Below are positions 37,944 through 50,651 of a stretch of DNA of 64,000 nt, in pieces. Numbering within the stretch: the stretch's first letter is position 1; every line of letters begins with the position of its first letter. This DNA is from Halospina denitrificans (lineage in GTDB: Bacteria; Pseudomonadota; Gammaproteobacteria; Pseudomonadales; Oleiphilaceae), in contig NZ_SOAX01000008.1 of assembly GCF_004364635.1 (NCBI RefSeq), positions 131,196-195,195 on the forward strand, in the 5' to 3' direction. A program made the translations under genes and the position numbers. The notes under the pieces are model-generated. The model was given only the letters and a program-made list of their open reading frames with translations, made no database searches and had not been told where the DNA came from.

Positions 37944-38768
37944 ATGAATACATTAAGGATTTCCGTAGTTTTCCTGGTCATTTTCAGCATGCTGTCGGGC
38001 TGCACCACCGTCTCCCGCCAACTGGGAAGCGTTACGGCGAACAAGTACGCCGAGCCCCGGAGCGGTACGGTCTGGGTCGTCCCCCCACCGCAGCTTGAAC
38101 CACCGCGTCCCGATGAACGCACCGTCTACATTTCCTATCGCAACATCAGCGATGCCACCCTTGATGTTGGGGCGCTTCTGAAAGAAGCCGCGCAGAATCA
38201 GGGCTGGGAAGTGGTCAATGATCCAACCCTCGCGCATTATCGCCTCAGAACGTCCACTCGTTTTTTTGGTGAAGTGGAGCCTGAATCCGGGGGCGCCAGT
38301 ATGGGGAAGGGCATGGGCGCCATTGCCGGCGCTGCCACGGGGATCGGTGTGGGTGTCGCAACTTCCAGGGCAACGGATAGCGGACTTGCCGGGGCAGCAG
38401 CTGGTATCGGAGCTGGGGGGCTGGCCGGCATCGGCATCTCAAACGCCTCCAAGCCGCGAGAGTGGGCCCTGATCATGGATGTTGTGCTTGAGGAGCGCCA
38501 GGGGCAGCCGATCGAGGTCGAGGTCAGCACCGGCAGTGAGAGCGCGTCGGCTTCGGTTTCCGGGACAGGCAACAGCCGGACAGCTTCCGGCGGCGCGACC
38601 ACCCAGTCAAACAGCAGTTCTGCAACCACAACGAAAAAGACCCAATATTTCCCGCACGGTATCCGCCTTTCTGTATGGGCAAACCAGATGAACATGCAGC
38701 AGGAGGAGGCAATGCCGTTGATCCGGGAGCGCACTCAAAAAGTAGTCACCAGAATGCTGCCGATGTGA
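37944..38768 (+). CDS. TraT-family outer-membrane lipoprotein (chromosomal)
   Basis: 274 residues from ATG 37944 with AGGGAG seven bases upstream. Signal peptide with lipobox MLSGC (Cys20). The fold follows plasmid TraT: DERTVYISYRNISDATLDVGALLKE, then a Gly/Ala-rich membrane-like region (GMGAIAGAATGIGVGVATSR, GLAGAAAGIGAGGLAGIG) and REWALIMDVVLEER. A Ser/Thr/Ala-rich insertion (about 195-225) replaces part of the TraT C-terminal domain. TraT mediates surface exclusion and serum resistance on F-like plasmids. No conjugation gene is nearby, so a general surface role is more likely. Confidence 0.85.
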   Translation: MNTLRISVVFLVIFSMLSGCTTVSRQLGSVTANKYAEPRSGTVWVVPPPQLEPPRPDERTVYISYRNISDATLDVGALLKEAAQNQGWEVVNDPTLAHYRLRTSTRFFGEVEPESGGASMGKGMGAIAGAATGIGVGVATSRATDSGLAGAAAGIGAGGLAGIGISNASKPREWALIMDVVLEERQGQPIEVEVSTGSESASASVSGTGNSRTASGGATTQSNSSSATTTKKTQYFPHGIRLSVWANQMNMQQEEAMPLIRERTQKVVTRMLPM

Positions 38769-38780
38769 ATCGGCCCTGTC

Positions 38781-38802
38781 GGCGGGGTGGTTGCACCCCG
38801 CC
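38781..38802 (+). terminator. GC-rich hairpin after the TraT-like gene
   Basis: A perfect 9-bp stem GGCGGGGTG/CACCCCGCC with loop GTTG, 12 bp beyond the stop codon. No T-run follows, so it may be only a stabilising hairpin or part of a Rho-dependent end. Confidence 0.5.
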
Positions 38803-38936
38803 TGCAACCCACCCCTACCGCAATATTGCGAAGACCGTAACATTTACACTTCCGGTCAGGTGACCTGTCCCACAGCTTGCCCCCTTGTCAGTTGATAGAC
38901 TCCATGCTGCCCTGACAGAGATTCCGGAGCGTGGGA

Positions 38937-39983
38937 ATGAAAGCCGTCCGGCAACTGACCCTGGTCATATTGTCCGCACTACCCCTGATGGCCAGCGCCG
39001 AATCGCTGGATGCCGCGAAGGCGGCGCTGGATGCAGGCACTCCTGCCGAAGCCGAGTCCATCCTTGCCGGTGTCAGCCGGGAAGAGGAGCGGGACGAGCT
39101 TTTTTATCTGCTGGCGGAGACGGCCCGGCAGTACGGTCATTACAGCGAAGCGGGCAATCAACTCAACCGTATTGACGACCCCGTCTGGGCGGCCATGGGA
39201 TATTTCAATCTTGCCATGTCCCACTTCATGGAGGAGTCATTCAGTCGCGCGCGTACCGCCCTTCGGGTAACGCGTTCGCTGGCTGGACCAGCTTCGAATC
39301 CGGCGGCTTCTGAAATGGGCAATCGCGCTCGCCTGGTTGAAGGGCTGCTGGCCTTGCGCGGTGGAAACCCCACGACGGCGAAGGCGTCCTTTGCTGCCAT
39401 CAAAACCGACAGCGTAATGGTGCCCCAGGGGCTCTATCTGCTTGGGATCGCCCGGGCGCGTACTGGTGAGCTGCACCGTGCCGTCCAGACATGGAAGCGG
39501 ATTGAAAGTTTCCCGGCGGCCCTGCCGGGGGTGGTGGAGGCCCGGGTCGCCCGGGTGTGGGCCCATCGGGAGCAGCAACAGTATCGTCAGGCTCTGAGTA
39601 CCACTGAATCGAACCGGAGCTACCTGGATAAGGTCATCGCGGACCTCAATGAGCTTCGCGACCGTGTCAGACGCGACGGTCTTGAAACGGTGGTGCGCAG
39701 CGAAGTGAACGGAAACGAGGACCTTGTGGATTTTCTGCGAGCAGGCCGTAATATCGCGCGCTCCAGCCCCATGGCCTGGTTTTTCCGCTTCCTGGAAACC
39801 GGCGGGACCATTGATGGGAGTGAGCGCCAGTTGAATGAGGCCTTTCTTGCGTTTCTGGGTGAGCAGGAGACGCTACTGCAGCAGTTCCAGGACCGTACGC
39901 TGCAGCAGCAGGCTACACTGTTCGAACGCATCGCACTGGAGCAGGCCGATGAGCGCCCAATGCAGCGGGGTGGCTGGGAATGA
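38937..39983 (+). CDS. Exported TPR-like protein, first gene of the ExbB/ExbD/AgmX operon
   Basis: 348 residues from ATG 38937 with GGAG seven bases before it (a GTG lies two codons upstream). Signal peptide ends near LMASA. The mature part is built of helical repeat pairs of TPR type (SLDAAKAALDAGTPAEAESIL, LYLLGIARARTGELHRAVQTW). A coiled-coil C-terminus is rich in Gln (QETLLQQFQDRTLQQQATLF). Probably periplasmic. It overlaps the next gene by 4 bp. Its role is inferred from the operon: a structural partner of a proton-driven envelope complex. Confidence 0.75.
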   Translation: MKAVRQLTLVILSALPLMASAESLDAAKAALDAGTPAEAESILAGVSREEERDELFYLLAETARQYGHYSEAGNQLNRIDDPVWAAMGYFNLAMSHFMEESFSRARTALRVTRSLAGPASNPAASEMGNRARLVEGLLALRGGNPTTAKASFAAIKTDSVMVPQGLYLLGIARARTGELHRAVQTWKRIESFPAALPGVVEARVARVWAHREQQQYRQALSTTESNRSYLDKVIADLNELRDRVRRDGLETVVRSEVNGNEDLVDFLRAGRNIARSSPMAWFFRFLETGGTIDGSERQLNEAFLAFLGEQETLLQQFQDRTLQQQATLFERIALEQADERPMQRGGWE

Positions 39984-42769
39984 AGCGCCGTCTCCCGCCC
40001 CTTATTCTTATTTTGGTGATGGTTCCGCTGACCGCTGTTGCCAGCGTCAAGCTGCAGGAGGGCGCGGAAACCCTGGGCGATCTGCGTCCCCTCGTTATCC
40101 GCATCGACGACCGGCCATTGCCTGATATTGCGCTTGAGGACGCCGTGCAGCGCTACGTTGCCGTTTTCGAGAGCATGTCGGACCCCGAGACCCGCATCGC
40201 CGTCCTCAACCGCATCCAGAACCTGCAGTTCCGCTTTGGTGACAACCTGGGACTGAGTGAGGCAGAGAGTCAGCGCTTGCACCGGAAAGCCCTGCCGGAC
40301 TTTGAAACGCTGCTGGCGGAGAATGACATGGCGCCAGGTGAGCGTGACCGGCTGCTTTATGAAGCCGCCCGGGCCAGTGATATTGCGGGCGAGCCGTCAT
40401 CATCCATCAATTACCTGGAAACGCTCATGGCGGATCATCCGGACTCCGGGCTCGTGCCCGAAGCGGCATTCCGGGTGGGGGAATACCGCTTCAGCGGTGG
40501 CCAGCATCACGCCGCCGTCGACGCCTTCCACAAAGCGGTGGACACCGCGGAAGATGCCGGTTTCCGCGAGCGGGCGACCTATATGCTGGGCTGGAGCCAG
40601 TTCCTGGACGAGCGGCGCGAGGCGGCCAGTGACACTTTTATTGGTTTTCTGGATACCCACCATAACGAAGATTCCGGGTTTGATCACCTGACCGGTAAGG
40701 CTCGCGAGCAGGTGGATGACAGCATGCGGGTCCTGAGCCTGATCGCCGCCTACGGAGAGGGACCGCCATCCATGGCGCGCATGATCCAGCGGCAGGGGGG
40801 GCGCCCCTATGAGGCACAGCTTTTCCATCGGCTCATGCGATTCTATCGTGACAACAGCCGATATCAGGACAGCGTTGATACGGCCCGCTATTTTCTGGAG
40901 CGTAACCCCGGGCATACCGCTGCGCCCTTGATGGCAGATGAGATCGTCCGGTCGTGGACTGTGGGTGGCTACCCTGGCAAGGCCAGAGAGGCCAAGGCGA
41001 CATTCATAGAGGATTACGGAGACGCCCGGGAAATGGCCGCGCTGGATGGCCAGCGGCGCAACCGCCTCATGGGATTTCTCAAGGAACTCGGTGTCTGGCA
41101 TTACCGTCAGGGCCAGTCCGGCACCGGGAGCGCCAGGGAAGCGTTTGGGCAGGCCTCCCGGTACCTCGAGCAGTGGGCTGATCATCAGCAGCGCTTCTCC
41201 GTTGGCAATCGGTTTGAAACGCCGGGCCTGATGCTGCTGCTGGCCGGGGATGCAAGCCAGCAGGCGGGTGAGTCTGCCAGGGCGATAGAGCTTTATCAGC
41301 GCGCGGCCTATGAAGCACCTCCCTTTCCGGCGGCGCGGGAAGCGGGCTACGCGCTCGTGCAGCTTCGCCATGACCGTTGGCGTGGACAGGGTGACAGAGA
41401 GTCGTTGCTCAACCAGCTGGTTGCTGACGCGGACCGGTTTGTCGCGACTTTCCCGGAGAGCCCCCGTATCCCCTCGGTACGGCATGAACTGGCCAATATT
41501 CTCTACGACAATGACCGTCTCGAGAATGCGGAACGTGTTGCCAGGGCGTTGGTTGAGGCAGACGGTGGGGGCAAACATGAGCGGGCAGGCTGGATCGTGA
41601 TCGGCCATGTGGCTCTCGAGCGTGGGGCGTATCCACGGGCGGAGAAAGCCTGGAATGAAACGCTTGCGCTGACAGCGGCAGACGATGATCGCCGGCCTGA
41701 TTTCAAACGACGCCTGGCCGTGTCGGTTTATCGCCAGGGCGAGGCAGCCCGGGAAGCGGGTGAGATGGAGGAGGCCCTGCGCCATTACGACCGGGTTTCC
41801 CGGGTTGCGCCGGAAACGGAAACCGCTATCAGGGCCAGTTTCGACTATGGCGGCCTCCTGCTTGAGCTGGAGCGTTGGGATGAAGCAATTATGGCTCTGT
41901 CGACATTCCGGGATGAGTATCCGGAGCATCGGCTGAGCGGGCGGATTTCGGAAAGGCTGGTGTTTGCCCACCTGGAGTCCGGGGATCCGGGTCAGGCAGC
42001 TGATGAGATGCTGGCCCATGAGCCGGCGGAACTCTCGGGCTCAGAACTCTGGGAATATCGACTGGAAGCGGCCGGCCATTATCGGGATGCGGACCGGCTT
42101 TTTGACGCCGCATCGCTTTATGAGTCCTTCCTCGCCGAAGGCAGCCGCGCCCTGGGTGATCATGAGTTCCACCAGGAGCGCCGCCACGATCTTATCCGGA
42201 TCTCCGCAGAGCTTGATCGCAGCGGTGCACTGGCTGATTGGCACAGTCGACTCCTGGAGGCGGAACGCAATGGGCCGGGGACCGATCGCAGCGAGTACCT
42301 GGCCAGCCAGAGTGCCCTCTGGCTGGGGCGTCGCGCGGCTGATGAATTTGAAGCCATAGGCCTGAAGGCCCCTCTGAAGGAATCGCTGCCGCGCAAACGC
42401 GATGCGATGGAAGTCGCCGTGAATTATTTCCAGGAAGCCGAGAAATATGGTTTTGCCGAAACCGCCACCGAGAGCACCTACCGGTTGGCCGAGCTCTATC
42501 GACAGCTGGCCGAGGACGTGATGGATTCGGATCGTCCCCAGGGGTTGACCGACCTTCAGGCCGACCAGTATGAAATGCTCCTGGAGGAACAGGCGTATCC
42601 CTTCGAGGAAAAGGCCATCGAACTGCATCAACGCAACCAGGAGCGTATCGCTGAGGGCCACTGGACGCCATGGGTCAGTCAAAGCCTGAGCACCCTCGCT
42701 GAAATGTTCCCGGCCCGTTATCAACGGAAGTCCCTCTGGATGGAGGCGCGTAATGAAAGCGGTCGCTAG
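39980..42769 (+). CDS. Large exported TPR-repeat protein
   Basis: 929 residues. Signal peptide ends near TAVAS. Almost the whole protein is a TPR/Sel1-like solenoid: LLYEAARASDIAGEPSSSI, FRVGEYRFSGGQHHAAVDAF, YMLGWSQFLDERREAASDTF, PSVRHELANILYDNDRLENA, FDYGGLLLELERWDEAIMAL. Such solenoids bind partner proteins; this one should lie in the periplasm. It resembles in type the large TPR proteins of the Myxococcus Glt complex (GltI class), though only at the level of architecture. It overlaps both neighbours (ATGA at the start, 17 bp at the end). Confidence 0.8.
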   Translation: MKRRLPPLILILVMVPLTAVASVKLQEGAETLGDLRPLVIRIDDRPLPDIALEDAVQRYVAVFESMSDPETRIAVLNRIQNLQFRFGDNLGLSEAESQRLHRKALPDFETLLAENDMAPGERDRLLYEAARASDIAGEPSSSINYLETLMADHPDSGLVPEAAFRVGEYRFSGGQHHAAVDAFHKAVDTAEDAGFRERATYMLGWSQFLDERREAASDTFIGFLDTHHNEDSGFDHLTGKAREQVDDSMRVLSLIAAYGEGPPSMARMIQRQGGRPYEAQLFHRLMRFYRDNSRYQDSVDTARYFLERNPGHTAAPLMADEIVRSWTVGGYPGKAREAKATFIEDYGDAREMAALDGQRRNRLMGFLKELGVWHYRQGQSGTGSAREAFGQASRYLEQWADHQQRFSVGNRFETPGLMLLLAGDASQQAGESARAIELYQRAAYEAPPFPAAREAGYALVQLRHDRWRGQGDRESLLNQLVADADRFVATFPESPRIPSVRHELANILYDNDRLENAERVARALVEADGGGKHERAGWIVIGHVALERGAYPRAEKAWNETLALTAADDDRRPDFKRRLAVSVYRQGEAAREAGEMEEALRHYDRVSRVAPETETAIRASFDYGGLLLELERWDEAIMALSTFRDEYPEHRLSGRISERLVFAHLESGDPGQAADEMLAHEPAELSGSELWEYRLEAAGHYRDADRLFDAASLYESFLAEGSRALGDHEFHQERRHDLIRISAELDRSGALADWHSRLLEAERNGPGTDRSEYLASQSALWLGRRAADEFEAIGLKAPLKESLPRKRDAMEVAVNYFQEAEKYGFAETATESTYRLAELYRQLAEDVMDSDRPQGLTDLQADQYEMLLEEQAYPFEEKAIELHQRNQERIAEGHWTPWVSQSLSTLAEMFPARYQRKSLWMEARNESGR

Positions 42770-43355
42770 GGCGGTGGGAATGGCGTTGTTTGCCCTGGCT
42801 ACCGGTTGTGGCAGCCTTATGCAGGCACCGGATCAGGGTTATGAGCCGCCGGGGGCTGATGTGCCCCTGGTGCGTGTCCCTCTGGACGACGAAGCGCAGC
42901 GCCTGGTTTCACGGGCACGGGATTCGCTGGCCCGGGACAACCCCGGGCGGGTCCGGGATTATCTGGCGCGCATTGACGGCCGTTACCGTTATGAGCCCGA
43001 CGTGTTGCTGGTTCATGGGATGGTTGATCGCATGACCGAACAGCCCCAAAAGGCGATGGTCCACTATGAAACCCTTCTGCAGGTAGAGCCGACCCACCCC
43101 GGTGCGGCCAATGATCTGGCGCTGCTCTACCGTGAGGAGGGGCGGATCCAGGAGGCGAAGGGGCTTCTATCCACTGCGCTTGAGGCGCATCCGGACCGGC
43201 CGCGACTGCATTACAATCTGGCCGTTCTGTACGAGCTCTATCTGGTCGACCTGGAGCAGGCGCTGGTCCATTACCGGGAATACCAGGCGCACTCGGACGG
43301 TGAGGACGAGAAAGTAGCGCGCTGGATCAAGGACCTTGAGAGGAGGGTGGAATGA
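42753..43355 (+). CDS. TPR lipoprotein
   Basis: 200 residues. A short signal peptide with lipobox LATGC (Cys19) predicts lipidation. The mature protein has three or four TPR units: RYEPDVLLVHGMVDRMTEQPQKAMVHYETLL, PGAANDLALLYREEGRIQEA, RLHYNLAVLYELYLVDLEQA. Probably anchored to the outer membrane, where it could link the inner-membrane motor to the envelope. It overlaps the next gene by 4 bp (ATGA). Confidence 0.82.
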   Translation: MKAVARAVGMALFALATGCGSLMQAPDQGYEPPGADVPLVRVPLDDEAQRLVSRARDSLARDNPGRVRDYLARIDGRYRYEPDVLLVHGMVDRMTEQPQKAMVHYETLLQVEPTHPGAANDLALLYREEGRIQEAKGLLSTALEAHPDRPRLHYNLAVLYELYLVDLEQALVHYREYQAHSDGEDEKVARWIKDLERRVE

Positions 43356-43639
43356 TCAGGGTGACTGGCGTCACAATCGCAACCGTTCTGCTGCTTCTGC
43401 CCTTGGTGGGCTATGGCCAGGAGGACAGGGGAATTGAAATCCGGGGCGTGGATGAGCGTCCCGGCGTGCTGCATCTGGTCCCGTGGCAGCTTCCTGAGGA
43501 CGATCTCCCCGAGGCACCGCGGGTGGATGGGTCCCGGTTTGAACGCATTATCGAACCCGTGGATGATCGAGTCCACCGGCGCCACATGCAATTTCGCCAG
43601 AATCCGGCAGCGCTTCTTGAAGCGCTGTCGACCGATTAA
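43352..43639 (+). CDS. Small exported protein of the TPR/ExbB operon
   Basis: 95 residues. Signal peptide ends near VGYG. The mature part (about 73 residues) is charged and proline-rich with no recognised domain (VLHLVPWQLPEDDLPEAPRV). Its translational overlap with the lipoprotein gene and its place in the operon indicate a real gene. 51 bp separate it from the ExbB gene, where GGAG sites reappear. Confidence 0.7.
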   Translation: MIRVTGVTIATVLLLLPLVGYGQEDRGIEIRGVDERPGVLHLVPWQLPEDDLPEAPRVDGSRFERIIEPVDDRVHRRHMQFRQNPAALLEALSTD

Positions 43640-43690
43640 GACACCTGATCACTGATAACGCATAACAACCGCAACGGAGTTTTGGAGCCA

Positions 43691-44356
43691 ATGGAAACCG
43701 CAATCAACTTTTTCCAGCAGGGTGGTCCCTTTATGTACCCGATCGCCCTGATCCTGCTGCTCGGCCTTATAATCGTGCTTGAGCGGTTCATCTACCTGCA
43801 GGTGGCTCGGCGACGTAACCGCGTCGCGTTTGAGCAGGGCATCTGGCCATTGCTGAAAAAAGGTGATTTCAAGCAGGCGGCCCAGACCGCACGGGAATCA
43901 GGGGTGGAAATCGGGCTCATGCTTGAGGCCGGGCTGGCCCGTTATCGCAACAACCAGTCCCGGGGGGATGTGGAATACGCCATGGAAGAAGGGCTGATGG
44001 AGGTGCTGCCCCGGCTTGAAAAGCGCACGCCCTACCTGGCCACACTTGCCAATGTGGCAACGCTGCTCGGGCTCCTGGGCACTATCATCGGTCTTATTTC
44101 CGCCTTCACGGCGGTGGCGGACGCGGAGCCTTCAGAGAAGGCGGAGATGCTGTCCCAGAGTATTTCCGTTGCGATGAATACCACGGCTTTCGGACTCATG
44201 TCTGCGATCCCGCTGCTGCTGGCCCACGCCTACCTGCAGACGCGGACCAACGAGATGGTGGACAGCCTGGAAATGGCGAGCGTCAAGCTGCTGAACCTGA
44301 TTTCGGAGACCGAAACAGGCAGTCAGGCAAGGGGCGGCGCGACAGGCCGGGGGTAA
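43691..44356 (+). CDS. MotA/TolQ/ExbB proton-channel family protein
   Basis: 221 residues from ATG 43691. N-terminal helix GGPFMYPIALILLLGLIIVLERFIYLQ. A cytoplasmic stretch with LARYRNNQSRGDVEYAMEEGLMEVLPRLEKRTPYLATLANVATLLGLLGTIIGLISAF is the TolQ/ExbB/MotA core, followed by SISVAMNTTAFGLMSAIPLLLAHAYLQ with the conserved Thr/Pro of the channel. It forms the pentameric inner-membrane channel around ExbD-type helices. Two ExbD genes follow at once, as with AglR-AglQ-AglS of Myxococcus. Confidence 0.93.
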   Translation: METAINFFQQGGPFMYPIALILLLGLIIVLERFIYLQVARRRNRVAFEQGIWPLLKKGDFKQAAQTARESGVEIGLMLEAGLARYRNNQSRGDVEYAMEEGLMEVLPRLEKRTPYLATLANVATLLGLLGTIIGLISAFTAVADAEPSEKAEMLSQSISVAMNTTAFGLMSAIPLLLAHAYLQTRTNEMVDSLEMASVKLLNLISETETGSQARGGATGRG

Positions 44357-44360
44357 CCGT

Positions 44361-44879
44361 ATGAGACGGCGACACCGTAAACAGACCTCGGAAGTGGATC
44401 TGAATATCACGCCCTTTCTCAACCTGATGATTGTGCTGGTGCCGGTACTGCTTCTGAGCATGGTTTTCACGCAGACGCGAATCATGGAGCTGAGTTTTTC
44501 CGACTCCGACGGGGCGGCCGCCCTCGAGGATCAGGAAGACCTGTCGCTCTACGTGGTTCTGCGCGATGGAACCCTCGAAGTGGGAGATAGTAAACGGGGC
44601 CCGCTGAAGCGCTTCGACCCGGTCAGCGGCGGCGACCCGGATTTTGAGGCCATGCGCGAGCTGCTTCGCGAGATCAAGAAGCGGTTCCCGGACAAGCGCG
44701 ATATCCGATTGCTGGCAAGCCCCGGCACGAACTACCAGACACTGGTGAGCGCCATGGATCATATCCGCGGGTATCCGGAGGTGGTTGCGGCGAATGTGGT
44801 GACGGCCGAGCTCTTCCCGGATATCGCCCTTGGCGATGCACCGTCGCGTAGCGGCGACAGCAATGGAGAGGGCTCATGA
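44361..44879 (+). CDS. ExbD/TolR-family protein with Asn at the proton-site position
   Basis: 172 residues. One N-terminal transmembrane helix in LNITPFLNLMIVLVPVLLLSM and a periplasmic domain with ExbD-like ending (DIRLLASPGTNYQTLVSAMDHIRG). In ExbD, TolR and the sister gene, the helix has Asp at the position after T-x3; here it is Asn21, so this subunit cannot carry the transported proton at that site. It overlaps the second exbD by 4 bp. A mixed ExbD dimer with one active Asp is the natural reading. Confidence 0.9.
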   Translation: MRRRHRKQTSEVDLNITPFLNLMIVLVPVLLLSMVFTQTRIMELSFSDSDGAAALEDQEDLSLYVVLRDGTLEVGDSKRGPLKRFDPVSGGDPDFEAMRELLREIKKRFPDKRDIRLLASPGTNYQTLVSAMDHIRGYPEVVAANVVTAELFPDIALGDAPSRSGDSNGEGS

Positions 44880-45379
44880 AGGAATCACGCAGGGCCCGCC
44901 GCATGCAGCGCCACTACCGGCGCATGAGCAAGCCGGGTGGCCTGAATCTCACGGCGCTGATGGATATCTTCACCATCCTGGTGTTCTTTCTCATGGTGAA
45001 TTCCTCGGATGTCCGTGTACTGCAGCAGGAGAAGGACATCACCCTGCCTGAGTCCAGGGCCGATACGGTGCCGGAGGACGTGCTGCGCGTTGTTGTGGCG
45101 GGTGGCAGTATCCTGATCAGCGGTCGCGAAGTTGCGCAGGTTACCGGTGATGCCTGGCCCAGCGATGATGAGGAGCGGGTCGAGGGGCTCTACGAAGCCC
45201 TGTCACAGCGTGTTGGCGATCGGGAAGTGCCCGAGAGGGGGCTGCCCGCGATGATCGTCGCCGACCGTGATATGGAATATGCCGTGCTGCGCCCGATCAT
45301 GCGCACTGCCGTGGAAGCGGGGTTCCGCCAGCTTCATCTCGCTGTGGAGAAACAACCAGGGGAGGCGACTGGTGAGTAG
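44876..45379 (+). CDS. ExbD/TolR-family protein with intact membrane Asp
   Basis: 167 residues. Basic N-terminus, then GGLNLTALMDIFTILVFFLMVNSS with Asp30 at the proton-carrying position, and a periplasmic domain ending with LPAMIVADRDMEYAVLRPIMRTAVEAGFRQLHLAV, the ExbD signature region. Its stop overlaps the GTG of the AgmX-like gene by 8 bp. It should form the active half of the ExbB-ExbD motor. Confidence 0.92.
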   Translation: MKESRRARRMQRHYRRMSKPGGLNLTALMDIFTILVFFLMVNSSDVRVLQQEKDITLPESRADTVPEDVLRVVVAGGSILISGREVAQVTGDAWPSDDEERVEGLYEALSQRVGDREVPERGLPAMIVADRDMEYAVLRPIMRTAVEAGFRQLHLAVEKQPGEATGE

Positions 45380-46274
45380 AGAAGACTCCTCCGGACTCCC
45401 CTGGGGCGGCAGTGGTACCGAGGATCGCCTGCTGGGGCTGATTACGCTGGTACTCCTGGTGTTCTTCCTGCCGGTGGCGGTTCTGATTCCGATGCTGGAC
45501 GTACCCGAGCCCACTCCGGAAGAGCGTGAAGAGGTTCCGCCGCAGATGGCCCGGATGGTGGATGAGCCCGAACCCGTGGAGCCCGAGGAACCCGAGCCTG
45601 AACCGGAGCAGGAGGCGCCCGAGCCCGCTGAAGAGCCTGAACCGGAACCCGAGCCACAGCCCGAGCCGGACCCCGAGGCCGTGGAGGAAGCGCGGGAAGT
45701 TGCGAGCGAGTCGGGTCTTGTGGGGATGAAGGACCAGCTTTCCGACCTTCGGGAGCTGGCGGATTCCGGACCGACCGAGCTGCGCTCCCCGGACGCCGAG
45801 GCGGCGGCCTCCGATGACTCGGCCCAATCGTCGGGGCCGGACCGGGAAGAGGTGCTGGCGGATTCCGGCGGTGCCGAAACCCTGTCAGAGGGGCAAACGG
45901 AAGAGGGCGAACTTGCCCGTCGCGAGGCGCGGGAACTTGAAGGGGGACAACAGGCGTCCCAGCAGGCTGAGACCGAGCCGGATGAACGTCCCATGGCGAA
46001 TATCCGCGAAACCTTCGAGAACAACAAATCGGCCCTGTTCTCCATCTACAACCGCGCCCGCCGCCGCAACCCGCTGCTGGAAGGCGAACTGGTCCTGGAG
46101 CTTCGCATCGCCCCGAACGGGCGCGTTAACGACGTCAGCATCGTCGACTCGGAGCTGGAAAACTCGGACCTGGAGCAGCGAATCGTCCAGCGAGTCACCC
46201 TGTTCAACTTCGGCGCGATGGACGTTCCCGAACGAACAGTCCGCTTCCCCGTGGATTTTGCACCACCCTCCTGA
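45372..46274 (+). CDS. AgmX/TonB-like energy transducer
   Basis: 300 residues from GTG 45372, with GGGGAGG seven bases before it. A single transmembrane helix (about 21-40) follows a short cytoplasmic tail. A long Pro/Glu-rich segment (about 45-105) can span the periplasm as in TonB. After an acidic linker comes a C-terminal AgmX/PglI-type domain (FENNKSALFSIYNRARRRNP, then LEGELVLELRIAPNGRVNDVSIVDSEL and a final FNFGAMD). Last gene of the operon. It should carry the force of the ExbB/ExbD motor to an outer-membrane or periplasmic partner such as the TPR proteins. The C-terminus is nearer AgmX/GltJ than TonB. Confidence 0.87.
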   Translation: MSREDSSGLPWGGSGTEDRLLGLITLVLLVFFLPVAVLIPMLDVPEPTPEEREEVPPQMARMVDEPEPVEPEEPEPEPEQEAPEPAEEPEPEPEPQPEPDPEAVEEAREVASESGLVGMKDQLSDLRELADSGPTELRSPDAEAAASDDSAQSSGPDREEVLADSGGAETLSEGQTEEGELARREARELEGGQQASQQAETEPDERPMANIRETFENNKSALFSIYNRARRRNPLLEGELVLELRIAPNGRVNDVSIVDSELENSDLEQRIVQRVTLFNFGAMDVPERTVRFPVDFAPPS

Positions 46275-46294
46275 CAGTGCTGTCTCGCGCACTG
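46275..46294. terminator. Hairpin between the AgmX-like gene and plsC
   Basis: A 6-bp stem CAGTGC/GCACTG with an 8-nt loop fills the 31-bp gap between convergent genes. No T-run. It is weak evidence of a terminator. Confidence 0.3.
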
Positions 46295-46305
46295 CCGGAG
46301 GGAGA

Positions 46306-47052
46306 TCAGGCAACCTGCTGTTCGTGCCCCTCGTCGGTGACCGGTGACTCACCGTTAAGGTCGGTCAGGTGTTGAATCATCAATGCCCGGCAACGGGCCA
46401 TCAGATCCGGCACATCCTTTATGCCCAGATGTTCAGTGGGAATGGGCGGCAGGACCCGGACGGTGACTGTGTGCGGACCATGGGGGCTCTGCTCATAAGC
46501 TTTCAGATAATCGCTAAAGCAGATCAGCGTGATCGGTGCCCCAGTCATCACCGCCGTCTGAAAGGCACCCTTGCGAAAGGGCAGGAGACCCCGTCCCCGG
46601 CTGCGCGTGCCCTCCGGCAGGATCCACACCGACTGCCCCCGGCAAGCAATCGCCTGGTTCGCCGCGTTCATCGCCGTCATCGCCTTCTGCCGATGACGCC
46701 TTTGAATCAACACGTTGCCACCCAGCCAGAAAATCTGCCCGAAAAACGGAATCCACCCCAGACTCTTCTTACCCACCACCACCGCATTCTCCGGCGTGAT
46801 CTGCCCATAGAAATACAGATCCAGATTGGACTGATGATTCGCCACCATCACATGCGGCCGCTCCGCCGGCATATGCTGCCAACCCTCCAGGCGCACACGT
46901 GTATTCAGAACCCTAAGTCCACCCCAGGCGTACATACGTGCGCAGGCCTTGTTGTTACCACGGTGAAAGGGCCGGGCTACACAAAGGATAAACCCGGCAA
47001 AAGTAGCCGGAACAGCAGCTATAAAAAGCCCGATTTTCTGAGCCCAGTTCAT
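46306..47052 (-). CDS. plsC: 1-acyl-sn-glycerol-3-phosphate acyltransferase
   Basis: 248 residues from ATG 47052 with GAGGG before it; five further codons upstream are open. An N-terminal hydrophobic helix (about 7-25) is followed by the acyltransferase motifs H73-x4-D78 in NHQSNLD, GNVLIQRR, LPEGTRSRG and GAPITLICF. It adds the second acyl chain to lysophosphatidate at the inner membrane. Other members of this family act on other lysolipids, but the motifs fit PlsC well. Upstream lies palindromic repeat copy 3. Confidence 0.88.
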   Translation of the reverse strand: MNWAQKIGLFIAAVPATFAGFILCVARPFHRGNNKACARMYAWGGLRVLNTRVRLEGWQHMPAERPHVMVANHQSNLDLYFYGQITPENAVVVGKKSLGWIPFFGQIFWLGGNVLIQRRHRQKAMTAMNAANQAIACRGQSVWILPEGTRSRGRGLLPFRKGAFQTAVMTGAPITLICFSDYLKAYEQSPHGPHTVTVRVLPPIPTEHLGIKDVPDLMARCRALMIQHLTDLNGESPVTDEGHEQQVA

Positions 47053-47302: not shown

Positions 47303-48979
47303 TCACTCCATACAGGCCAGAACCAACGCCCAGAACTCCGAGAAATCATTAACAACAACATCCGGCTTATACGGATACTTCTCATTCCCCGGAAAAATCG
47401 TATTCAGCCATCGCAGATCCCACTGCGCCCCGTTGAAGAAAACCGCCGTCTGCCCGGCCCGCGCCGCCGCAATCACATCCGTGGTACTGTCCCCCACATA
47501 CCAGATGCCCCCATCCGACGACTCCCCAAGCCGCTCCGCCGCCAACAGCAACTGGTCCGGATGCGGCTTGCGCTGTGACACATCATCCCCGCAGATTGTC
47601 AGCTCAAAAAACCCGCTCCAGTCATCACCGTCCACCCGCCTGAGCTCCTCCTCGAAAAACTCCCGGTCCCGGTTGGTGATCACCCCGAGCCTCAAGGGCA
47701 GACGATTGAGCGCCACAAGCAGGTTGCGGACCTGCGGCTCGAAGGCCTTGGCTGTGCCGAAGTGTTTCCGGTAGTGATGGGTGAACACCTCATGGGCCCG
47801 CGCCTTCGCCTCGGCATCCTCCCCGAAAAGCACCTCGAAGATGTCCGTGCGCGATATCTTGCGGTCCGCGCGCACCTTCGGGTGAAGCTGGGCATGATCG
47901 CGCACATACTCCACCAGCCGGGCGTCTTCCGGGGAGCGGGCTTCTTCCGGTTCAATGACGTTGTCCATCAGGCCCATCCCCTTGAGTTCCGGAAGCATGT
48001 CATCCACGGCGTGGTACATGGCATCCAGCGTATCCACCAGCGTCGCATGCCAGTCGAAAAGGAGGGTTCGGGGGCGTGCCAGATTGACCACCGAGGGGTG
48101 CCAGTCGGGCTCAATGCGCGGCTCGGGTGGTTTGGGCCCAGGGTAGGGGGCTGGCCGGTTGTCCGCGAGTGCACTTTGTGCGCCGGAACCCTCGGGCAGT
48201 GCGGCGTCAATGAGGTCGGTAAGTTCCTCGAAGGAGGCCGCAATGGCATCCGGCCGGTGGTCCGGGTCTCCGGCGAATCGCCGCTCAATGTAGCTCGGCT
48301 CCCACTGCCCGCCATTGAAGAACACCGCCGTAACCGGGGCATTCTTGCCGGTGACCATATCCACCGTACTGTCACCCACGTACCAGACGTTGGGGCCCGC
48401 CTCCAGTCCTGCAGCGTGAGCCGCATTCAGGAGCACTTCCGGGTCAGGCTTGTAGGCAGTGACGTCTCCGGCACAGATGGTCACGTTAAAGAGGGACTGC
48501 CAGCGCCCCCCGTCGACAATCTCCAGTTCATGATCCAGGAATTCCCGGTTGCGGTTGGTGGCCACGCCCAACTGGATGCCGGCCGCACGAATCGCGCCCA
48601 GATACTCCGCCAGGCCATCCTGGAAAGGCTTAACCTCCCCGAAATGGCGGCGGTAACAGGCGTTGTAGGCTTCGTGGGCAACCTGCTTGGCGTCGGTATT
48701 GTCACCGAAAATGGCATTGAAGATGTCCGTGCGCGAGACGCGGCGCTCGGCCAGGATCTGTGGATGCAGGCGGCGGAAGATGCGGATGTAGCGTACGAGC
48801 TTGGCGTCGTCCGCGGTCTTGCACTCACTTTCCGGGAGAAGCTCCTCGACCAGCCCCAGGTCCTCGAGCTGGGGCAGCATCTCCTCCATGGCAGAGAACA
48901 TGGCGTCATGGGTATCCACCAGTGTTCCGTGCCAGTCGAACAGGATCAGGTGAGGCGTTGCGAGCCGTGGTTCCGCCAT
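47303..48979 (-). CDS. Tandem-HAD hydrolase-like protein with DWH active-site motifs
   Basis: 558 residues from ATG 48979, with GAGGCGG upstream, 10 bp after ettA. Two homologous HAD modules (about 8-265 and 305-555) share LFDWH(G/A)TLVDT, VSRTDIF/ISRTDIF, GVATNRNREF/GVITNRDREF and VWYVGDSTVDM/IWYVGDSTTDV. The Asp nucleophile is present in both, but the usual second Asp two residues later is His (Asp15-Trp-His17). This is unlike phosphatases (DxD) and may mean altered chemistry. The final GDST motif and late Asp are intact. Internal duplication is clear. Likely co-transcribed with ettA. Substrate unknown. Confidence 0.8.
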   Translation of the reverse strand: MAEPRLATPHLILFDWHGTLVDTHDAMFSAMEEMLPQLEDLGLVEELLPESECKTADDAKLVRYIRIFRRLHPQILAERRVSRTDIFNAIFGDNTDAKQVAHEAYNACYRRHFGEVKPFQDGLAEYLGAIRAAGIQLGVATNRNREFLDHELEIVDGGRWQSLFNVTICAGDVTAYKPDPEVLLNAAHAAGLEAGPNVWYVGDSTVDMVTGKNAPVTAVFFNGGQWEPSYIERRFAGDPDHRPDAIAASFEELTDLIDAALPEGSGAQSALADNRPAPYPGPKPPEPRIEPDWHPSVVNLARPRTLLFDWHATLVDTLDAMYHAVDDMLPELKGMGLMDNVIEPEEARSPEDARLVEYVRDHAQLHPKVRADRKISRTDIFEVLFGEDAEAKARAHEVFTHHYRKHFGTAKAFEPQVRNLLVALNRLPLRLGVITNRDREFFEEELRRVDGDDWSGFFELTICGDDVSQRKPHPDQLLLAAERLGESSDGGIWYVGDSTTDVIAAARAGQTAVFFNGAQWDLRWLNTIFPGNEKYPYKPDVVVNDFSEFWALVLACME

Positions 48980-48989
48980 GGAAACCGCC

Positions 48990-50651
48990 TCAGGCGAGTT
49001 TCTTGTGCTTGACCCGCTTGGGCACCCAGGCATCATCGCCCTTGCGGGACCGGAGGTCGGCATCGTACTCGGAGAAGTTGCCCTCGAAGAAGATCACCTC
49101 GCTGTCGCCTTCGTAAGCCAGGATGTGGGTCGCGACGCGATCAAGGAACCAGCGGTCGTGTGAGATCACGATGGCGCAGCCCGGGAACGCCAACAGCGCT
49201 TCCTCGAGAGCACGCAGTGTTTCCACGTCCAGGTCGTTGGTGGGCTCGTCCATAAGCAGCACGTTGCCGCCCTCCTGCAGGAGCTTGGCCAGATGGATCC
49301 GGTTGCGCTCACCGCCTGAGAGTTCCTTGATGCGCTTCTGCTGTTCCGCGCCCTTGAAGTTGAACCGGCCCACATAGGCGCGGGACTGGGTCTGGTATTG
49401 GCCAACCTGGATGATGTCCTGGCCGCCGCTGATTTCTTCCCAGACGGTGTTGTCCTCGTTCAGTTCCCGCATCTGGTCCACGTAGGCCAGCTGCACGGAT
49501 TCGCCGACGCGGATCTCGCCCTCATCCGGGGTTTCAGAGCCGATGATCATGCGGAAAAGTGTCGATTTACCCGCGCCGTTGCCACCGATGACGCCCACGA
49601 TGCTGGTCGGTGGGATGTTGAACGTCAGGTTTTCAAACAACACCGTGTCACCGTAGCTTTTGGTGACATTGTCCACTTCAATAACCTTGTCCCCCAGCCT
49701 TGGCCCCGGCGGGATGTACAGCTCGTTGGTCTCATTGCGCTTCTGGAATTCCTGGGAATTGAGCTCTTCGAAGCGCTTGAGTCGGGCTTTGTTCTTGGTC
49801 TGCTGGCCCTTGGCATTGCTGCGCACCCACTCCAGCTCCTGCTGAACCGCCTTGCGGTGTGAGGATTCCTGGCGGGCCTCCTGTTCCAGGCGCTTTTCCT
49901 TGTGCTCCAGCCACTGGCTGTAGTTGCCCTGGAAGGGGATGCCCTGGCCACGGTCAAGCTCCAGGATCCAGCCGGCGACGTTGTCCAGGAAGTAGCGGTC
50001 GTGAGTAATGGCAACCACGGTGCCGCTGTAGTCGTGCAGGAAACGCTCCAGCCAGCCCACGCTTTCAGCGTCCAGGTGGTTGGTGGGCTCGTCCAGCAGC
50101 AGCATGTCCGGCGTGGACAGCAGCAGGCGGCACAGGGCCACTCGGCGGCGTTCGCCCCCGGAAAGGTGTTCCACGCTGGCGTCCCAGGGCGGCAGTCGCA
50201 GGGCGTCGGCCGCCACTTCCATACGGCGCTCAATGTCATGGCCCTCTGAAGCCTGGATGAAGTTCTCCAGTTCTCCCTGCTCCTTCGCCAGGGCATCAAA
50301 GTCCGCATCCGGTTCCGCGTAGGCGGCATAGATCTCGTCGAGCCGCGCCAGCGCCTTGTTAACGCCTTCCACGGATTCCTCGACGATCTCCTTCACGGTC
50401 TTGCTCGGATCCAGCTCAGGCTCCTGGGGCAGGTAGCCGATATTGAGTCCCGGCAACGGCCGTGCCTCACCGACGTAATCCGTTTCCACCCCAGCCATGA
50501 TCCGCAGCAGTGTGGACTTACCCGCGCCGTTCAACCCCAGGACGCCGATCTTGGCCCCGGGAAAGAAGCTGAGATTGATGTCTTTTAGGATTTCCTTCTT
50601 GGGGGGAACGACCTTGCCGAGGCCGTTCATGGTGAATACGTACTGAGCCAT
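48990..50651 (-). CDS. ettA: Energy-dependent translational throttle protein EttA (ABC-F)
   Basis: 553 residues with CGGAG before ATG 50651. Two ABC-F ATPase cassettes: Walker A GLNGAGKST and GGNGAGKST, signatures LSGGERRRV and LSGGERNRI, Walker B LLLDEPTNHLDAES and LLMDEPTNDLDVET. The opening MAQYVFTMNGLGKVVPPKKEIL and the arm/linker region match EttA. It binds the ribosomal E site and gates entry into elongation according to ATP/ADP level. It is followed after 10 bp by the tandem-HAD gene. Confidence 0.95.
   Translation of the reverse strand: MAQYVFTMNGLGKVVPPKKEILKDINLSFFPGAKIGVLGLNGAGKSTLLRIMAGVETDYVGEARPLPGLNIGYLPQEPELDPSKTVKEIVEESVEGVNKALARLDEIYAAYAEPDADFDALAKEQGELENFIQASEGHDIERRMEVAADALRLPPWDASVEHLSGGERRRVALCRLLLSTPDMLLLDEPTNHLDAESVGWLERFLHDYSGTVVAITHDRYFLDNVAGWILELDRGQGIPFQGNYSQWLEHKEKRLEQEARQESSHRKAVQQELEWVRSNAKGQQTKNKARLKRFEELNSQEFQKRNETNELYIPPGPRLGDKVIEVDNVTKSYGDTVLFENLTFNIPPTSIVGVIGGNGAGKSTLFRMIIGSETPDEGEIRVGESVQLAYVDQMRELNEDNTVWEEISGGQDIIQVGQYQTQSRAYVGRFNFKGAEQQKRIKELSGGERNRIHLAKLLQEGGNVLLMDEPTNDLDVETLRALEEALLAFPGCAIVISHDRWFLDRVATHILAYEGDSEVIFFEGNFSEYDADLRSRKGDDAWVPKRVKHKKLA

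Follow-up and report, generated by a model that had tools for sequence, protein, structure and literature searches.

Which envelope machine is encoded by an operon that joins an ExbB-type proton channel and two ExbD-type proteins to several tetratricopeptide repeat (TPR) proteins, and on what load does this machine act? The question is raised by eight genes of Halospina denitrificans that lie at positions 38937-46274 of the window (i.e., the whole stretch of 64,000 nucleotides analysed here, from contig NZ_SOAX01000008.1), all on the plus strand. A preliminary description of the window had placed an operon with these domains at this very position and had noted that most starts and stops overlap; both points hold. 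Successive genes overlap at five of the seven junctions (1/2, 2/3, 3/4, 6/7 and 7/8), a 4-bp gap separates genes 5 and 6, and the single larger gap, between genes 4 and 5, measures 42 or 51 bp depending on the start codon. Judged by profile, order and phylogeny, the operon can be read as gltC-gltD-gltE-(gltF-like)-aglR-aglQ-aglS-gltG, and it almost certainly belongs to the Agl-Glt core complex. The gene set as such is already known: the available parts of Luciano et al. 2011 (PMC3169522) name a core complex of unknown function, clustered in Gammaproteobacteria, in which gltC, gltD, gltE, gltG and aglR, aglQ, aglS stand together in one region along with an extra gene. The operon studied here has the same make-up, with the first gene as a tentative gltC. 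Relative to that account, as far as it is available, an Asn in AglQ, gene fusions and a locus type with outer-membrane barrels are additions.

The assignment is carried first of all by the motor proteins. The open reading frame ORF5 (43691..44356, plus strand; alternative start TTG 43682) encodes an AglR-like proton-channel subunit that matches the MotA/TolQ/ExbB family (PF01618, 101.6 bits), and ORF6 (44361..44879, plus strand) and ORF7 (44876..45379, plus strand), the orthologues of AglQ and AglS, match the ExbD/TolR family (PF02472, 42.1 and 59.3 bits). In a PDB sequence search, ORF5 matched TolQ and ExbB, and ORF6 gave only a marginal match to ExbD. ORF5 retains the two channel Thr residues known from TolQ, in LLGTIIGL and NTTAFGL. 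For comparison, three of the genomes whose contigs were retrieved by a 16S pattern were used (Myxococcus eversor, Corallococcus carmarthensis and Hyalangium versicolor); the names AglR, AglQ, AglS, M2 and Nfs were assigned in these genomes from size, order and score, and GltG and GltE were anchored by NCBIfam models. The ORF5 family profile ranked AglR first (176-180 bits), followed by a second AglR-type paralogue (135-159 bits) and by the ExbB (110 bits) and TolQ (47 bits) of the window's own genome, and the ORF6 family profile ranked six AglQ/M2Q proteins first. Two quick trees were built from a chosen subset of loci, with some long branches and with long rows that may be misplaced: in the ORF5 tree (59 rows), ORF5-type proteins, AglR and the AglR paralogue formed one clade (Shimodaira-Hasegawa-like approximate likelihood ratio test, SH-aLRT, 99), and the other 21 rows, Tol and Exb types with the genome's own TolQ and ExbB among them, all fell outside it; in the ExbD-type tree (70 rows), ORF6-type, ORF7-type, AglQ, AglS and their paralogues formed one clade (SH-aLRT 99), within which ORF7-type proteins and AglS/M2S were an inner clade (SH-aLRT 98), and the ORF6-type/AglQ/M2Q fork stayed unresolved but outside the ORF7/AglS clade. 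The kinship with the Myxococcus Agl-Glt system that the preliminary description had proposed is thus upheld by these trees and by the match of the ORF2 profile to GltD.

The same trees decide on an ordinary TonB or Tol energiser. PF01618, PF02472 and the TonB-like C-terminus of ORF8 are what such an energiser would show, and the motor superfamily is indeed shared with TonB-ExbBD and Tol-Pal. However, ORF5-7 stand apart from TolQR and ExbBD in both trees, which contradict this explanation; the preliminary description had itself named a position of the ExbB and ExbD proteins inside ordinary TonB systems as the outcome that would speak against it, and the trees show the opposite. Furthermore, the genome already has tolQR and exbBD, the operon contains neither a TonB-dependent receptor nor a Tol-Pal gene, as first described, and the transmembrane helix of ORF8 lacks the His of the SHLS motif of TonB and TolA (motif according to the available parts of PMC12204202 and PMC4646322). 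Unlike in the TonB and Tol systems, there are two distinct ExbD-type proteins with one acid and a TPR chain instead of a receptor or TolB-Pal. An ordinary energiser is therefore extremely improbable. A PF01618 scan of the own genome gave five loci including this operon, with no MotA recognised among the five. With neighbours named by eye, the tolQ-tolR pair adjoins a ybgC-like gene, the exbB-exbD pair a comEC-like gene and one further PF01618 locus a gene resembling a BtuF-type binding protein; the remaining locus (L004) has exbB with two exbD.

The Glt parts of the operon were compared with their myxobacterial counterparts by family profiles (signal peptides and the ORF3 lipobox were called by eye). 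ORF2 (39980..42769, plus strand) encodes a GltD-like exported TPR protein of 929 residues, whose family profile matches, in M. eversor, GltD with 179 bits (E 4.7e-54), the presumed NfsD with 211 bits and a paralogue with 286 bits, its top score. This paralogue belongs to a glt-like cluster of M. eversor (L128, G058:C10:247000-266990), in which a ninth-gene-like gene and genes resembling gltC, gltD, gltE, gltF and gltG are ordered as they are here. It differs in having no internal aglRQS; after it come a gene of barrel-like type and one of the polysaccharide-export type (the latter reaches 115 bits against TIGR03027, whose cut-off is 180). The L128 cluster also adjoins, as seen by eye, an MglA-like ORF, and a little farther on, at 267392, there is a match to Robl_LC7. 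ORF3 (42753..43355, plus strand), a GltE-like TPR lipoprotein of 200 residues with an LATGC lipobox, has a family profile that matches GltE of M. eversor with 142 bits (E 4.9e-43). ORF8 (45372..46274, plus strand), a TonB-type transducer, consists of a short cytosolic LPW segment, one transmembrane helix, an acidic Pro/Glu-rich spacer and an AgmX/PglI C-terminal domain (NF033768, 58.2 bits, cut-off 40); a PDB match of the acidic stretch was taken as spurious. Its family profile gave 55 bits for GltG of M. eversor, 62 for the presumed NfsG, 80 for the L128 paralogue and 23.6 for a presumed GltJ in L125. Among the NCBIfam equivalogs, by contrast, ORF8 scored best with GltJ (33.4 bits vs. 26.1 bits for the GltG model NF033760, cut-off 650). 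Of the AgmX/TonB-like nature first ascribed to ORF8, the C-terminal domain was confirmed and the identity with AgmX/GltJ was not, as the profile search marks ORF8 as the probable GltG counterpart.

The first and fourth genes are more divergent. ORF1 (38937..39983, plus strand; start ATG 38937, alternative GTG 38931) encodes a shortened GltC-like exported protein of 348 residues with weak TPR matches, and its position in the operon fits gltC. The matches of the GltC-family profile are weaker than those above (29.6-49.7 bits; presumed NfsC 29.6, the GltC-like protein of L128 35.4), and the top score of 49.7 belongs to a TPR protein with a much higher score against the ORF3 profile; the L128 GltC-like protein reaches 67 bits against NF033756 (cut-off 450). 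ORF4 (43352..43639, plus strand) encodes a small exported protein of 95 residues with a family motif of the EQPxVLYIVPW type, for which Pfam and NCBIfam scans at E 0.01 gave no match. A weak bridge through L128 makes it a possible GltF relative (hhalign probability 53% for the ORF4 family with the L128 protein and 97% for the L128 protein with GltF). According to the available parts of Luciano et al. (PMC3169522), gltF occurs only in Myxococcales and Bdellovibrionales, and the extra core gene has no homologues there; this extra gene could be either ORF4 or the ninth gene described below.

How widespread is the operon? ORF2 homologues were sought in 58 genomes, the window's own included, and 40 of them were positive. 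A class sample of 370 genomes from 273 genera contained a GltD-like match (threshold E 1e-20) in 90 genomes and 70 genera, so that the survey across Gammaproteobacteria suggested by the preliminary description finds the machine in about a quarter of the sampled class genomes. The class is taken to be Gammaproteobacteria from the preliminary description, from the gene set and from the 23S probe GAM42a, which matched exactly in the window's genome (G000) and in G022, though in neither three other class genomes tested nor Myxococcus. From parts of these two sets of matches, 40 stretches of relatives and 40 of the class sample, the latter chosen for spread over families, were taken; together with the window they make up 81 loci. 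All eight genes are present as separate genes and in the same order in 57 of them, hence the grouping is more than chance. Eighteen of the 24 exceptional loci fall into three kinds: contig-end cuts (L055, L063, L162, L177, L194), gene fusions, and motorless modules, in which genes 1-4 lie in a stretch without a recognised motor gene (L045, L046, L048, L059, L174, L176, L184, L187; gene 3 is also unrecognised in L176). In the others, aglS is missing from the operon (L050, L056), aglQ and aglS are missing (L062), gene 4 is unrecognised (L065) or gene 1 is unrecognised (L169, L175). All eight genomes with motorless loci encode AglS elsewhere. An AglS is encoded by every one of the 13 genomes tested, including G007, G021 and G031, where one operon is without aglS. 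A search of 72,556 plasmid records for plasmid carriage gave no match.

The two ExbD-type proteins differ at the residue that matters most for a proton motor. At the position of TolR D23, the ORF6 family reads NLM and the ORF7 family MDIF; in the window these are Asn21 of ORF6 (codon AAC, 44421..44423, plus strand), aligned with AglQ D28, and Asp30 of ORF7 (codon GAT, 44963..44965, plus strand), presumably the only proton-carrying acid in the dimer. Asn was found in 35/35 ORF6-type rows of the relatives and the window and in 31/33 of the class sample, i.e. in 66 of 68 loci (the 13 of 81 loci without the gene are left out, and the score floors dropped no recognised row). In ORF7-type proteins, Asp is present in every row of the relatives and the window and in 33/33 of the class sample. 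The myxobacterial proteins have Asp in all six AglQ-type (AglQ/M2Q) and all six AglS-type sequences; the AglQ Asp aligns to D28 and is residue 29 in M. eversor as read here. Asp in both AglQ and AglS is also what the available parts of a 2022 review give (PMC9389320), which leave open whether the two form homo- or heterodimers. The pattern of a two-acid 5:2 stator, with Asp in both axle transmembrane helices, is thus replaced by Asn in ORF6 and Asp in ORF7, which would imply that the AglQ/AglS motor is asymmetric and has a single proton carrier. A single origin of the Asn found no support: a careful tree without the key columns needs three changes, while only one is forced by well-supported branches.

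Do AglQ and AglS of Gammaproteobacteria then form an obligate heterodimer in which a single acid carries the protons? We would give this proposal an even chance. Within it, the fixed Asn is the natural counterpart of AglQ-D28N, which in Myxococcus paralyses NfsD foci and Nfs movement (available parts of PMC3858216). An AglS (ORF7) homodimer with two Asp, beside which ORF6 is a non-conducting accessory or regulator, is the rival explanation; it appears unlikely. Asn removes the proton site from ORF6 types in 66 of 68 loci, and in ExbD, TolR and MotB the usual form is a homodimer with two acids. However, the ORF6 genes remain beside aglR with an otherwise strongly conserved transmembrane helix, and in L050 and L056 it is aglQ that stays with aglR and aglS that is absent from the operon. 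If the heterodimer is real, the result would be a 5:1:1 motor that completes a turn in five proton steps rather than ten, or else a one-sided ratchet; proton carrying and anchoring would be split between two ExbD-type subunits, giving a natural one-acid example among the 5:2 motors. Asn in AglQ beside Asp in AglS bears directly on the homo-/heterodimer question raised in PMC9389320 as available. In the same genome, the exbB-exbD-exbD locus L004 (G000:C1:287380-290703) likewise pairs an ExbD with Asp (PLIDVV) and one with Asn (PLINVV); this pattern is therefore not confined to the AglQ/AglS family, and one-acid ExbD pairs may be more widespread.

What would such a motor drive? The preliminary description had the operon transmit the proton motive force through the periplasm to a task, and a trans-envelope motor driven by this force is indeed very probable. 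In our model, five copies of ORF5 (AglR) would build a channel that encloses a dimer made of ORF6 (AglQ) and ORF7 (AglS), and protons passing via Asp30 of ORF7, the one acid of the dimer, would make the dimer rotate relative to the surrounding ring. Standing beside the motor and spanning the periplasm, ORF8 (GltG-like) would hand the force to a GltC-GltD-GltE chain (ORF1-ORF2-ORF3). The far end of this chain would be a lipoprotein of the outer membrane, and ORF4 (GltF-like) would serve as a linker in the periplasm. The load would be an outer-membrane or surface polymer complex, comparable to the spore-coat polymer moved by Agl-Nfs in Myxococcus. The Myxococcus systems for gliding (AglRQS-Glt) and spore coat (AglRQS-Nfs) share homologous AglR, AglQ, AglS, GltD, GltE and GltG with the operon, and one Agl motor serves both Glt and Nfs (PMC3858216, as available); the motorless Glt modules in genomes that encode AglS elsewhere parallel this arrangement and speak for the model. 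Unlike here, myxobacterial AglQ and AglS both have Asp. In addition, GltG of Myxococcus has an FHA domain, and GltA, GltB and GltH-K are added (available parts of PMC3169522).

A surface polysaccharide as load is the preferred, if tentative, proposal. It is favoured by the Nfs precedent, by the export-type gene following the L128 cluster and, weakly, by the co-occurrence with Poly_export, which is present in 74 of the 90 complex-bearing genomes vs. 152 of the 280 others (Fisher p 1.7e-6, ignoring kinship and genome size). A link to capsule was reportedly made by Agrebi et al. in 2015. The whole account, i.e. an Agl-Glt core complex whose one-acid motor drives the Glt chain with a surface polymer as load, is in our opinion somewhat more probable than not, and several observations weigh against it. 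As to the load, no polysaccharide gene is found among the eight genes, Poly_export is missing in 16 of the 90 genomes with the complex, and its co-occurrence is weak evidence, being uncorrected for kinship or genome size. As to the motor, D28N paralyses Myxococcus despite the Asp in AglS, hence a one-acid AglQ/AglS motor fails there, and two of the 68 loci (L164 and L199) keep Asp in AglQ. As to the Glt chain, the ORF3 profile scores two other TPR proteins above GltE (226 bits in L127 and 154 bits for a protein of 2005 residues in L125), which means that the assignment of ORF3, with only 18.7 bits against the GltE model NF033758, rests partly on position and lipobox; two gammaproteobacterial GltC-type proteins scanned gave no match to the curated GltC model (NF033756), and the direct hhalign probability of ORF4 with GltF is a weak 9%. 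Finally, the literature searched, in its available parts, contains no experiment on any gammaproteobacterial copy and no mention of the AglQ Asn.

The load could also be something else. The same kind of force-driven envelope machine may assemble or position an outer-membrane lipid, lipoprotein or barrel, which we regard as possible but less likely than a polysaccharide load. This explanation gains from a second locus type (type B), represented by 13 of the first 40 loci, in which the upstream region holds a barrel gene. The barrels belong to OMP_myx_plus (173.9 bits against TIGR04565 for the copy in L046), and DUF3570 (nine loci), TlpA-like (eight) and DUF4266 genes (four) accompany them, with no sugar genes. 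The presumed NfsA and NfsB match TIGR04565 as well (187.5 and 73.4 bits). Among 14 chosen gammaproteobacterial genomes, five matches exceeded the TIGR04565 cut-off, all at barrel-type loci, and weaker ones occur elsewhere in several; the window's own genome, searched at E 0.001, gave no match. The available text of Luciano et al. (PMC3169522) confines gltA and gltB to Myxococcales and Bdellovibrionales, a range that the type-B barrels would extend if family membership is accepted as homology. The barrel locus type and the ninth gene offer concrete candidate partners. The GltE-type lipoprotein end directed to the outer membrane and the 16 complex-bearing genomes without a Poly_export match also fit a non-polysaccharide load, and Wartel et al. 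(PMC3858216, as available) allow protein and lipid cargo. Against it, the studied relatives Glt and Nfs act on surface polymers according to the same source, and Poly_export is enriched alongside the complex, if uncorrected.

A gliding machine, the task best known for the homologous Agl-Glt proteins, is very unlikely. Apart from homology, it could draw on one roadblock match above cut-off (Robl_LC7, the MglB-type family) in the own genome (G000:C3:376618-376860), but this genome is the sole positive among nine gammaproteobacterial genomes tested, with the other eight lacking roadblock. The operon contains no GltI-type gene and no further gene of the GltH, GltI, GltJ or GltK kind (a negative that covers the operon only), and the genome lacks an OMP_myx_plus barrel of the kind adjoining nfs. 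The domain scan showed no FHA domain in ORF8, which makes a link to the cytoskeletal side unlikely. Moreover, the available parts of Luciano et al. (PMC3169522) state that motility requires more than the core genes and that most carriers have no documented gliding.

In 70 of the 81 loci (35/41 in the first set and 35/40 in the second), gltC is directly preceded by a ninth gene. It encodes a small exported protein whose beginning looks, by eye, like a coiled coil; one member scanned had no Pfam or NCBIfam match, and its relative in L128 is weak (19 bits). In the window and three sister species (the four species of the genus examined), the ninth gene is missing and GltC has only 348-369 residues, which distinguishes these four species from the core complex of Luciano et al.; where the ninth gene is present, the GltC median is 630 residues. 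ORF1 covers positions 113-385 and 573-629 of the 630 of the family profile and thus lacks 112 positions at the N-terminus and some 187 in the interior. Over 75 loci, GltC is shorter where the ninth gene is absent (p 0.003, ignoring kinship; four of the ten loci without it are from one genus). Two loci with the ninth gene have a short GltC (392 and 474 residues) and two without it a long one (757 and 768 residues), the latter in L162, where the stretch may cut off the ninth gene. GltC-GltD fusions in L167, L182 and L193, GltD-GltE fusions in L164 and L166 and a fusion of the ninth gene to GltC in L034 suggest a chain of ninth-gene product, GltC, GltD and GltE.

Scans of 38500-46700 found no plus-strand promoter-like site, with promoter counts not clearly above shuffles (3 vs. 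a mean of 1.8) and 3 terminators vs. 5.8 in shuffles. The surroundings of the first locus type (type A; vWA/MoxR-type, acyl-CoA ligase and helicase genes) look like a conserved chromosomal neighbourhood, and no function was derived from them. A gene for a TraT-like lipoprotein (38088-38768; PF05818, 106.5 bits) lies 168 bp upstream of ORF1 and is not among the neighbours conserved with the operon; at 47303-49063, an ORF of 586 residues consists, by eye, of two tandem HAD-type phosphatase halves. Other loci have further genes after gltG: a large TPR protein in the two loci without aglS (L050, 3010-4890, with a C-terminal end resembling an OGT-type glycosyltransferase by eye; L056, 3305-5152) and an exported protein of ~970 residues in L053 (12997-15897, with PD40 and hydrazine-synthase-alpha-like matches) and L054 (12844-15783). 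In a sister species, a TonB2-type-like cluster (by eye; two ExbB, ExbD and a TonB-like protein; L028, 12488-16841) is located directly upstream of the operon.

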